From: Norana najaformis | Lineage: Eukaryota > Annelida > Clitellata > Crassiclitellata > Hormogastridae | Direction: 5' to 3' | DNA: 64,000 nucleotides | Assembly: GCA_964023275.1 (NCBI GenBank) | Contig: OZ029921.1 | Location: 8,098,806-8,162,805, forward strand | Shown: in pieces, positions 18,536 through 36,459 of the stretch | Layout: every line of letters starts with the position of its first letter | Position numbering within the stretch: the first letter of the stretch is position 1 | The notes under the pieces: model-generated | What the model saw: only the letters and a program-made list of their open reading frames with translations | Told to the model about the DNA's origin: nothing | The model's database searches: none | Program-made: the position numbers and the translations under genes

Positions 18536-21500
18536 CTAAAAATCTTCGTCGAAGTCATCGTCAATGTCGATGTCACCCGTGACGCAGAGGAATCGTTCGT
18601 TGTTCTCGTTGTCAATGGTTGCATTTACATGGAAGTGTCCCTACAACGCATACTGTACATGTTTTAGTTTCTTATAAATAAGCGCAAAAGTAAAGAATCC
18701 GTTTACTAGCATAACAGACTGCGGTATTTCTCACGCACTGAGGCGTATCGAAGCTTCACCACAACGATTTCTAGATTTCTTTCCACCGTCCTGCACTCGA
18801 TTGCGGTGGCGGGAGATAAGCCAGGCTTACATTCGATGGGAGGTGAGGGAATAGAACTTGGCGCCTGCTCTGAGAATAATGAAGTCGATAATTATGCCGC
18901 TGACGGCTTGTGTCCGTTTATTGGGTCGACAGCGCGCGTAGTTGCTCTGGTGTAAATGTAAGATGTAATGCCTCGACCTTGCTCATTTTACAATGAATTA
19001 ATGAATGGGCGCCACGCCACTTAAGGTCCCCGTGCACGGAGCGTTCTAGCCTGATCGACAGCAGTTGGCCCATGAAAAGTGGCTGTCAGGGACCATCCAT
19101 ATACACTCTTGGATCTTGACCTGGAACCGAACACTTTTGCCTATTGATTTTGTTTTGACTGAATGCCTGTGAATAAGCTGGTCCTCGTGATGTGGCTTTC
19201 GTTGTACGCTTTAGAAATCTCGGGATTACTATTACGATTACATCCACCCGTAGCCGTCAGTCTGTCTACCTGCCTGACTCTTAGCTCTTGACCTGGAAGA
19301 GAATATGACCATTTACCCACCTACACCCGTAGGCCTACTTATTTTTGTTTTGATTGAACACTTATGAATAAGCTGCTTTCCGCAACGTTGCTTCTTTGGA
19401 CGCTGAAGAAATCTCGAAGTTACCGATACGTGGTCAGCTCTAAGAAGAGGTGCTAGCCAAAATAAATTCCCATCCTACGAGGTCAGACTGACCGCCCATG
19501 CGCCACCTGGTGAAAGAAATAGGTATTAGAAATATATATGTAAAGGCGCTACTTAGAACAGAATTATGATCAAGAAACGCCAAAAAATTAGTTAAAGCCT
19601 TCTGATAAAGGCGCAGAAGTAGAAGATACTTACGCCAGGTAGTGGTGTAGTAGGGTCTACAGTAATCTGAAAGTTATTTATGTCCACTCTATCTAAAAAC
19701 AAAAGACATTCATTTTATATCAATGTTTCATTCACCAAACATTGGTAGGATAAACACACACACACACAAATAAAAAAGTACAGCATATTCAGGACAGCAG
19801 GCCTGCCTCTATTGTTATAGTAGATGTTGCCACAGCCATCAACCTATGAGAACACCTCAAACTGGATGGGTAAGAAAACATATACATAATTGACAATAAG
19901 GCCTACCATTAACACTAAGTGAAACTCCGCCACTGACTTGTTTGGGGATAGTGCCAGTCACAAGCCTAGATAAAGGAGGAGGGCGACGTCAACGGCCTTT
20001 GATGCCACAAGACGTGGTTAAACTGATGGAACCTATCACTGAGTGAATATTTTCTAAGAAATCGCAGTCTTCTGGTGAACCAACAGTCATTAATGTTAGG
20101 CTCCTGTGTGAAGAACAGGACTGACTCAACATTAATATGACCGATTTTAAATATTTTACACATGGCAGCACTGAACGTGTACTCTGAGGAGTTCAGCTCA
20201 CTCTTGGTGAGGCTAACAGCTTCCATTCCATAGAGGAAAGGTTTACAGTGGGTGCTATTAAGATGTAGCAAACAGGCTCACAGTATTTGTAGCATTGGCT
20301 ATACAGCGAGTTGAATGACTTATAAAACTTAATTCTCATTTCATGTGAACTAACTCTGAATGACTTGGCTGCAACCAGAGAACAACCAAGAGATTTAAGT
20401 TTATCAACATAACTGATCTCTGTACCACTGACCGTGATATTCTTACACACATTACGGAACGATGAACCAATCCTTATAACCTGAGATTTATTTACATTTA
20501 GTTTCATATCCAGACTTTCAAGTGCTACAGAACAGATGTCAGCCATAGCTTGGAGATCATACAGTGATGCTGATATTAAGAGAAGGTCATCTGCGTACAT
20601 GATACACCCCAAGAATACCTCACCAATTCTACAGCCATGACTTAACTTTTCAATTCTGTCATTGACATAAACAGCAAATAGGGGAGAACCACACTGCCTA
20701 ACTCCACAGGCCAGAGTTATCATGTTTGACAGCACATTATCCCATCTTACAAAAGGTGCACTCGCTGGGTACAAGGTTATAAGCGTGGTTTTAGCCTTAA
20801 CCTGTTTTTAACCCAAACCGAAAGACCTATTATTGTAGCAGATCATTCGAGCCTAACCAAAATCACGGGGAAATTTGAAGTTTAACGGGTCTTTGTTGAC
20901 TAACAAACGAATCCCATGTAGCAATGTCGACTGGCTCGGTTTTGCCCAGTTCGGTTACGCCTAATGGCATGCACACTGTGGGCGAAATTTTCTTGAGGGC
21001 AACGGTTATTGGGTCGATGTCTGATGTCATTAAAACTGAGCCTAATATTACAACACACTGCTTCATACAAACTTTTGTGGCTTTTAATTTATGGCTTTTA
21101 GACATTATATTCATATATTTGGACCACTTGTTCTATTTCAGACGCTATTTAGTTTTAAAAACAACAAAGATGAAAACGACCCAACCCGTGCCGCACAGGT
21201 TGACGAGCGTGACAGAAATTTCAGCTTAGCTATGAATCACAAAAATACGCCTACAACAAGTCTCCTGTTGTCATAGCTGACTGCAATCTCAACTCTCGAT
21301 ATTCATGCTACATGTATATTACACACTAGCCTCCTGTGATAACGAGGGTTGGCCTTGTATATAGGCCTAATGTTGTTGTAAATAAACTTATAAATATTGA
21401 TGACGTAGCTACGAAGACGCCCCTGTATTGTATTAATATCCAATGGAGCGTCTGAACTAATATGGGTAAGTTTCCCCTTCCGTTGCAAATCGTGCCCTAT

Positions 21501-33800: not shown

Positions 33801-36459
33801 CCTTGGGCAATAGGACATCTCAGCTGAAAATTCACGTACTGCATGGCTACCGTTCGAATTTCTTGGCATCTGAAGTCGTTACAGTCGTCGTAAATTGGAT
33901 CAGGAACACCGTGCAGCCAGATCTTCAGGCACAACTGGCCCCTTGTAAACGCCTTCGCTATATATATATATATATATATATATATATATATATATATATA
34001 TATATATATATATATATATATATATATATATATATATATATATATATATATATATATATATATATATATATATATATATATATATATATATATATATATA
34101 TATATATATATATATATATATATATATATATATATATATATATATATATATATATATATATATATATATATATATATATATATATATATATATAGGTGTG
34201 TGTGTAAATATAAATAATTTATGATCGAATTTGTATACCAATACAAATTGCTTAAAACGGATACTGAGCGAAAGAACATGTTCTTTTAATGTAGTTCATA
34301 TATATATATATATGTGTGTGTATATATATATATGAACACATTAACCATATTAAAAGAACATGTTCTTTCGCTCAATATCCGTTTTAAGCAATTTGTATTG
34401 ACATACAAATTCGATCATAAATTATTTATATTTACTGACTTAATATATAACGTAAGCTATATATACATATATAGGCCTATTATATATTATGTATTATATA
34501 AATAATAGCAATTATATATTATATATATATTTTATATATGTATATATAATGCCGGTAATTTAAATATCAACTTTATATTACATTCACAATAATGTAATTG
34601 TAATGCAGTTCAGCACAATAAAATACACAACAATACAGATTAGGCTACTTACAGTTGATTAGTTACAGATTGCAAATAAGCTTACAGATTACATCCAAGT
34701 GAATTACTGTCTTACCTGCTACTACGTTCAGATTTACGGTGTACCCGACTGCACTCTTCAAAATCTTGGGAGTCCAATCCATAGAAAAAGGATACCGAGT
34801 AGGGTCTGCAAGTTAACAAATTATGATGGTGATGATGATGATTAGAGTTTCCTGTACGGCGCTTTATAAATGACCAGTCAAATATATCTTTAAACTCTCT
34901 TTAAACATAAAGCATATAAAGTTATAAATCCATCTGTAGGTCCGAAATCCAGAATGCAATACTTGGGTCCAAGCAGTGAGGATGGGGAGATATATCGGCA
35001 GTGAGAATGGGGAGATATGTCAGCAGTGGGGATGAGGAGATATATCGGCAGTGGAGGCGCAAGGGTGCCAAAAGTTGAAGAGCGTCCCTGGTTGCCATAG
35101 TTACTACTACAGAATCGAGATGCACAGCAAGCAACATCAAGCTGAAAATGTGCAGTATAATTGTGTAGTGTAGTAGTGAAAGCGGAGTTCCAGCGGCGGC
35201 CTGCGTGCGTCCGGCTCAGCGCCTCTGGGAGCCTATGTATAGGAGCAGCAACTCAGACAGTCATCGCAGTTGAACAGTAGCCAGTGTGTGAACCTTTTCA
35301 GGACTCTATTTTGTTCGTTACTTTATTAGACAAAGGCTCGGTTCTCAACACAACATAATGCCTTTGGTAATTTATAGGCTGTTTAGATTAAAAAGTGAAT
35401 TTTAAGAAAACAGAATGATCAGAACCTTTTCAACCTTTTTCTTCACTCTGCAAATTTGTAATCCCAAATTATGTTGGTAGCTCTCCTTTGCACTTTCTCC
35501 AATTGTTCTATGCCATAATTCAGGTATGGATTCCATACCTGGATGCAGTACTATTCAAACATTCGTCCTCAACAATGATTTGTACAACCTCGGTATTGTC
35601 CCTGCTGACTATTGTTCTTTCACGACAGGGCTACCTAAGGTTGAGCTAGCCTTTTTGCGGCGTCGGCACACGGAGCTTGAAGGTTTTCCAACCCTATGCA
35701 TAATCACTCTCAAGTCCATTTCTTCGTCACTCATTTTCAATACCTTACCCCCGTTTAATATGAAAATTCTTTGTATTTCTTCCTCATATGCATCACCGAA
35801 AACTTTTCCAAATTAGATAGCGTCTGCCAGTCCTGTGACCAGTGAACGTTCTTCTAAGATCCTCTCGCATTATCTTCGATTCTTCTTAATCCGCCCTTGC
35901 TCTGCATAACTTTGTATCATCTGTTTCTTTAAAACAAACTTATGAACAGCAATGACCCAAGCACTGATCCAAGTTGTGGAACTCTGCCAAGCGTATCTGT
36001 CTATCCAGAATGTTTGGGATAACCAGCCTTGAACCCATGCTATCACCTGCCGTCTATTCCCACATGCTGCAACTTTTTGGCCACTCTTAGATGACGAATA
36101 GATACTGGCCCAGTCTCTAAGGCTACATATAACGAGTTCGTTTATGCACAAATTAATTACCATTTAGAAGTAAAAATTTTAATTTAAGTTTCTAAAACAT
36201 ACGTTCACTTTAGTTAAATCTCGTGACTTCTTAAATTAAAGGTGGGTGAAATAATATTTGACCTATTTTAATGCCCCGCCCATAGGAAACGTACAGAACT
36301 GTGGTATTTCGGTGTTGTTCAGTAACAACAGAGTTGTCTGCAACAAAAGTACGTAGACCTACCACAGCTGCGAAGAAAACCTTTGTCTTCGCTCTGCACG
36401 GCGCAGACCGCCAGAAGAATCAGAGAAATGGCGCCCAACGGATTTATCAACATCTTCAT
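30830..36459 (-). CDS. Secreted ML-domain (NPC2/GM2A-like) lipid-binding protein, copy B
   Basis: Minus-strand exons: 36363-36459, 34716-34805, 33799-33957, 31972-32030, 30830-30934; 510 bases, 169 aa, every exon the same length as in copy A and all six cysteines kept. Replacements A to B: V42D, T47I, A60V, S81P, K89N, N90D, V91F, R94Q, Q97R, I99V, F138W, I144L, D160E. The signal peptide exon and exon 4 are unchanged in protein. Six of the changes fall between residues 89 and 99, around the Cys88/Cys93 loop. No stop or frameshift is present, so this is a working paralog candidate, not a pseudogene. The acceptor of exon 3 is preceded by 236 bp of pure TA repeat, which could affect splicing. 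Confidence 0.85.
31250..31450 (-). repeat. SINE-type repeat, unit B
   Basis: Duplicate of 18950-19130. Unit B keeps extra bases (AGGGTAAGATCCTTCACC...) missing from A, so A carries a small deletion. Confidence 0.55.
32270..33100 (-). mobile_element. LINE reverse transcriptase remnant in ML intron 3, unit B
   Basis: Copy of the element at 19930-20790, with the same YADD box and an extra frameshift upstream of SPFAVYVN. Confidence 0.85.
33959..34194. repeat. Pure TA microsatellite, about 118 units, at ML-B exon 3 acceptor
   Basis: 236 bp of uninterrupted TA, directly beside the splice acceptor of ML gene B exon 3, against an interrupted tract of about 33 bp in unit A. Confidence 0.97.
34205..34434. 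repeat. Long AT-rich palindrome, unit B
   Basis: Same palindrome as 21721-21951, better matched at its outer ends (TAAATATAAATAATTTATGA pairs fully). It is separated from the 236-bp TA tract by only about 10 bases. Confidence 0.92.
34979..35053. repeat. Minisatellite of about 25 bp, 3 copies, unit B
   Basis: Same unit as at 22492-22592 with one copy fewer. Confidence 0.85.
35170..35370 (+). promoter_or_regulatory. Promoter-like segment, possibly LTR-derived, unit B
   Basis: Copy of 22700-22900. The TATA form is changed (CCTATGTATAGGAG), so the box is weaker here. Confidence 0.3.
35400..36170 (-). mobile_element. Degraded CR1-type LINE in ML intron 1, unit B
   Basis: Copy of 22960-23700. 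Confidence 0.7.

Follow-up and report, generated by a model that had tools for sequence, protein, structure and literature searches.

A stretch of the genome of the annelid Norana najaformis (assembly GCA_964023275.1, contig OZ029921.1, positions 8,098,806 to 8,162,805 of the forward strand; these 64,000 nucleotides are referred to here as the window) contains two genes of five exons each that very probably arose by recent tandem duplication and encode small secreted lipid-binding proteins of the ML-domain family. The exons, their reading frames, the duplication and the match to the family profile are all observed. The two genes are new but ordinary members of a large known family, and the duplication is of an ordinary kind.

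In each copy, denoted A and B, five exons of 97, 90, 159, 59 and 105 bases lie on the minus strand and are separated by introns of phases 1, 1, 1 and 0. The joined exons of copy A comprise 510 bases and encode 169 residues followed by a stop codon, with no internal stop; those of copy B likewise give 169 residues and a stop, with exon lengths and phases equal to those of copy A. All eight introns, four per copy, have GT-AG borders, and their lengths in A and B are 1576 and 1557, 552 and 758, 1825 and 1768, and 993 and 1037 bases, respectively. The coding parts differ at 20 bases and the proteins at 13 of 169 residues. The coordinates given in the initial annotation of the window are all correct, with the five exons of each copy joining in matching phases, and its statements that exon lengths, splice sites and frames are shared by the two copies and that no exon exceeds 159 bases, the length of the longest, also hold. 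It described the genes as hidden, which is accurate in that such short exons escape a plain listing of open reading frames, but this is nothing special, being common for multi-exon animal genes. The exons are as follows.

23895..23991, minus strand: copy A exon 1, with the start codon, the predicted signal peptide and the start of the mature protein; ends in phase 1; donor GTAGGT; copy B identical
22229..22318, minus strand: copy A exon 2; acceptor TTGCAG; donor GTAAGA, rank 2 of 366 GT in the gene region
21518..21676, minus strand: copy A exon 3, with cysteines 72, 88, 93 and 110; donor GTGAGT, rank 1 of 366; the AG of the acceptor closes a TA run
19634..19692, minus strand: copy A exon 4, from the joined model and splice-site scores
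18536..18640, minus strand: copy A exon 5, with the last cysteine, the acidic tail and the stop codon; AATAAA starts 433 bases past the stop
36363..36459, minus strand: copy B exon 1; 97 of 97 bases match copy A
34716..34805, minus strand: copy B exon 2; 5 of 90 bases differ from copy A
33799..33957, minus strand: copy B exon 3; 9 of 159 bases differ from copy A; a perfect (TA)118 run ends at the acceptor
31972..32030, minus strand: copy B exon 4; 2 of 59 bases differ from copy A
30830..30934, minus strand: copy B exon 5, with the stop codon; 4 of 105 bases differ from copy A; AATAAA starts 435 bases past the stop

The joined proteins were compared with the Pfam ML profile PF02221 (E1_DerP2_DerF2), for which the curated gathering cut-off is 22.7 bits. 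Copy A matched with 29.2 bits (E 1.3e-6) over residues 86-160, encoded by exons 3-5, and copy B with 29.4 bits (E 1.2e-6) over residues 45-161, encoded by exons 2-5, so that the family proposed in the initial annotation was recovered for both copies. When the pieces of copy A were searched singly against Pfam, exons 1-2 and exon 3 gave no match and exons 4-5 reached 18.2 bits, below the cut-off; the reversed copy A protein had no Pfam match either. Because the joins had been proposed without the profile and the match runs across them, the exon joins and the family assignment back each other. A tblastn search for a third ML copy in the window returned, at E below 0.02, only the ten known exons, the next best match having an E of 0.029.

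The N-terminus of the protein resembles a signal peptide, in agreement with the initial annotation: the mean hydropathy over 11 residues peaks there at 3.1, compared with a maximum of 1.22 among stretches that begin at residue 31 or beyond, a judgement made by hydropathy only, with the cut after residue 23 placed by eye. The precursor contains seven cysteines (19, 32, 72, 88, 93, 110 and 154); the six reported initially are thus the correct count for the mature part, because six of the seven follow residue 23, but not for the precursor. When the pair was aligned with one GM2A sequence and three NPC2 sequences from PDB entries, four columns were invariant, namely three cysteines and the proline that follows the second of them; window cysteines 88, 110 (the one preceding the proline) and 154 align with cysteines common to the GM2A and NPC2 sequences. 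The general layout, a signal-peptide-like start followed by one domain with several cysteines, is that of the ML family, from which the pair differs in the weakness of its profile match (29 bits) and in an acidic tail past the last cysteine (12 residues in A).

Several observations weigh against the ML-domain gene reading, in addition to the patterns of divergence considered below. The PF02221 match of 29 bits is modest. A sequence search of solved structures with protein A, at E up to 10, found none, and a two-row profile of A and B retrieved only a mitochondrial ribosomal protein, at an E of 1.2. Splice sites, ranked with a weight matrix of round numbers that is untrained on this genome, are uneven. 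Among 366 GT in copy A the donors rank 7, 2, 1 and 21, and among 363 in copy B they rank 7, 2, 1 and 24, which is good to fair; the acceptors rank 33, 238, 20 and 68 of 350 AG in copy A and 31, 189, 8 and 65 of 344 in copy B, so that the acceptor of intron 4 is middling and that of intron 2 is weak. The latter lacks a pyrimidine tract and consists of the end of a TA run, which in copy B is the perfect (TA)118 at 33959-34194 directly before exon 3, an unusual splice setting for which no counterpart is listed at the copy A acceptor. In copy B, an acceptor far upstream with a better tract keeps the frame open through the TA run as far as exon 3; its use, which we judged unlikely, would insert 102 residues, most of them tyrosine-isoleucine repeat. 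In copy A, the only two alternative in-phase open acceptors found for exon 3, dropping 96 or 111 bases, were rejected as both would lose cysteines 72, 88 and 93.

Searches of other collections gave little further information. Neither protein matched NCBIfam, and protein B, the only one of the two searched against PHROGs, had no match there. No viral or prokaryotic relative was confirmed among 16 and 105 pattern matches, respectively, in a weak test that used two short peptides per scan, partly from the signal peptide. A literature search, much of whose output was off topic, found no publication on the gene pair.

The initial annotation had called the proteins NPC2/GM2A-like; the ML family is matched, but the assignment cannot be narrowed in this way, as the scores with human GM2A and human NPC2 do not stand out from those of shuffled sequences and NPC2-like exons occur elsewhere in the genome. 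Pairwise scores were assessed in local and global modes with 1000 shuffles each. For human GM2A, 756 (A) and 701 (B) of the shuffles attained the local score and 604 and 612 the global score, and hhalign profile comparison of the pair with GM2A gave a probability of 0.1%; assignment to GM2A was rejected on these grounds. The mature part of each window protein has six cysteines, compared with eight in GM2A (PDB 1g13), and the pairwise similarity is insignificant. The one likeness, the spacing from the CP motif to the last cysteine (44 in the pair, 45 in GM2A and 41 in human NPC2), was noted by eye and is a lead only. Matches to DUF1091 (PF06477), a family linked to the CheB proteins of flies, were confined to residues 100-139 and stayed under the cut-off of 25 bits, at 15.5 (A) and 14.5 (B).

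That the pair could be the NPC2 (sterol carrier) gene of this animal appears highly improbable, although the Pfam family is the same and the comparison with ant NPC2 is suggestive, with just 9 (A) and 6 (B) of 1000 shuffles attaining the local score and 5 and 4 the global score. The corresponding figures for human NPC2 are 79 and 89 (local) and 515 and 521 (global). Relative to NPC2 (PDB 5kwy, 1nep and 3wea), the pair shares six cysteines, an aligned CP motif and an aligned last cysteine, and differs in its cysteine layout. With the cysteines C8, C23, C28, C74, C80 and C121 of 5kwy and the VPFP core, all invariant in three NPC2 sequences, taken as the reference features, C74, C80 and C121 align, the alignment of one N-terminal cysteine is ambiguous, and the window proteins lack C23-C28, the second NPC2 cysteine pair. 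The exact VPFP core is missing as well and only partly echoed, by GVSDPIY in A and by GVPDPIY in B, the latter at the position of human NPC2 GVPVPFP.

Of four candidates scored in a six-frame, exon-by-exon family search of the whole genome (608 Mb, 17 contigs, in which the window is C9:8098806-8162805), two were returned; each is an NPC2-like exon of contig C1, with 57.1 and 46.6 bits, respectively. These exons lie 13 kb apart (L001 1501-1734 and L002 1501-1695), contain the residues AKAVVHG...VPFPL...CKNSG.TCPL, and apparently represent another ML pair in the same genome. As NPC2-like exons sit on contig C1, the window pair is probably not the NPC2 gene of this genome, and NPC2 orthology was rejected on the combination of this location and the differing cysteine layout. 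The same search did not report the window's own exons and can miss similar genes; reading exon by exon and without these exons, it gives no member count for the branch to which the window pair belongs.

The duplication that produced the pair was delineated by self-comparison, which yielded two units arranged head to tail, and a fragment of a reverse transcriptase lies within the first.

16409..28538, no strand assigned: duplication unit A
28668..40614, no strand assigned: duplication unit B, head to tail with unit A
20196..20807, minus strand: reverse-transcriptase fragment in intron 3 of copy A; RVT_1 34.2 bits, cut-off 29.6

Over 11,685 aligned bases, which take in short flanks past the units, 498 substitutions separate unit A from unit B. 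An open frame at 32516-33019 in copy B resembles, as compared by eye, the reverse-transcriptase fragment of copy A, which therefore probably predates the duplication. A 24-base repeat is present in 17 copies in unit A (25657-26064) and 6 in unit B (38091-38234), so this array probably changed length after the duplication.

The tandem arrangement could in principle be an assembly artefact, with two diverged haplotypes of a single locus placed end to end. Such an origin would account for the evenness of the divergence, with identity between 0.953 and 0.975 in 12 one-kilobase bins (apart from a 202-base tail at 0.842), at a level within the range of heterozygous marine invertebrates. We nevertheless consider it improbable, given that the window is free of any N and that the unit borders have the appearance of a genuine rearrangement. 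At the A/B junction, the tail of the right-hand sequence of unit A (with an inverted copy at 42020-42221) is followed by about 60 bases of ACAATTACCCC-like words that occur neither at the left edge of unit A nor at the right edge of unit B; unit B itself stops partway through the right-hand sequence, retroelement-like by eye, that continues further in unit A. Moreover, the ratio of nonsynonymous to synonymous substitution rates (dN/dS), 0.64 by NG86 and 0.74 by YN00, is above what is usual for alleles of a working gene. A minus-strand frame over the right-hand sequence of the units had no Pfam match. At the end of unit B, positions 40614-41965 form a self-inverted repeat of about 1.35 kb (75% alike) that is also retroelement-like by eye.

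Given a true tandem duplication, the question is whether both copies are kept. The initial annotation called them intact, which is right for the reading frames, whole in both, but selection on both copies is weakly supported. The alternative, that one or both copies are a recent pseudogene under relaxed selection, too young to have acquired a stop or frameshift, strikes us as rather unlikely, although much of the divergence conforms to it. Identity between the copies is not higher in exons (96.1%) than in introns (96.3%); the dN/dS values rest on 20 changes and are high; and the 13 residue changes are about as many as drift predicts, with a mean of 14.3 in simulated copies with intact frames, 32% of which had 13 or fewer. 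The bare TA run that serves as the intron 2 acceptor in both copies points the same way. These patterns are offset by the distribution of indels, none in the 510 exon bases compared with 30 in 4,836 aligned intron bases, for which the Poisson chance of no exon indel is 0.04 to 0.06, or 0.08 to 0.13 if only frame-breaking indels are counted. Of 20,000 simulations with twenty random substitutions each, 44% kept an intact frame and 56% had a broken frame, start or stop, and the product of the indel and substitution values puts the chance of intact frames under drift at about 0.035 to 0.055. All 16 splice-site dinucleotides are kept, which is little evidence at such divergence. On balance, these data argue weakly for upkeep of both copies by selection.

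The residue changes are clustered, with 7 of the 13 in a stretch of 19 residues (81-99) that surrounds cysteines 88 and 93 and in which they alter charge and bulk. Under a uniform spread, such clustering has a chance of 0.004, but the width was picked after seeing the data, so the clustering is a lead only. If it is real, the pair could be splitting its ligand range; that the copies took different ligands after duplication, as a fresh case of a lipid-binding protein dividing its ligand range, is a speculative and improbable proposition.

The course of events suggested by these features would be that a head-to-tail duplication took in a five-exon ML-domain gene and about 12 kb of DNA around it, and that each copy is transcribed from the minus strand and spliced to a message for 169 residues. 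The product would be exported via its signal peptide, and the mature protein of about 146 residues is predicted to adopt the ML sandwich of two sheets, with a pocket for lipid and disulfides that hold it together. In secreted ML proteins a lipid sits between two beta sheets, to be passed to an enzyme, receptor or membrane; like the ML proteins of known role, the products of the pair most likely carry or present a lipid outside the cell or in lysosomes. By analogy, the likeliest role would be that of a digestive or immune lipid carrier. Passages of a study that describes a shrimp member with six cysteines name MD-1, MD-2, NPC2, GM2A, PG/PI transfer protein and Der p 2 among the ML proteins and mention their central hydrophobic cavity (PMC9832027). 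Among molluscs, excerpts of published studies list proteins labelled as ganglioside GM2 activator in the digestive gland (PMC5549309, PMC4203926), in hemocytes (PMC9484523), in the octopus salivary gland (PMC7693380) and in snail-conditioned water (PMC9589101).

With the pair, two gene models join a family of lipid carriers that serve digestion, immunity and chemical sensing; as a recent duplicate, the pair also offers material for asking whether both copies are kept. Of practical value is the observation that a profile can confirm short exons joined by eye.

The surroundings of the pair include two other sets of frames with recognizable similarities; Rfam (at gathering scores) and ARAGORN found no matches anywhere in the window. 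To the right, on the plus strand, 42979-43677 matches ANF_receptor with 45.8 bits, and the frames 54629-54874 and 56089-56334 match protein kinases with 29.3 bits (over the cut-off) and 28.5 bits (under it); together, the plus-strand frames at 42979-56334 are probably a receptor guanylate cyclase gene. To the left, on the minus strand, 3325-3624, 4946-5542 and 7152-7454 have sub-threshold alpha/beta-hydrolase, peptidase S9 or carboxylesterase matches, and the frames at 3325-7454 are perhaps one multi-exon esterase gene. Finally, 49546-50205 consists of 33 copies of the 20-base repeat TCGTTTAGACTGTCCATTCT.

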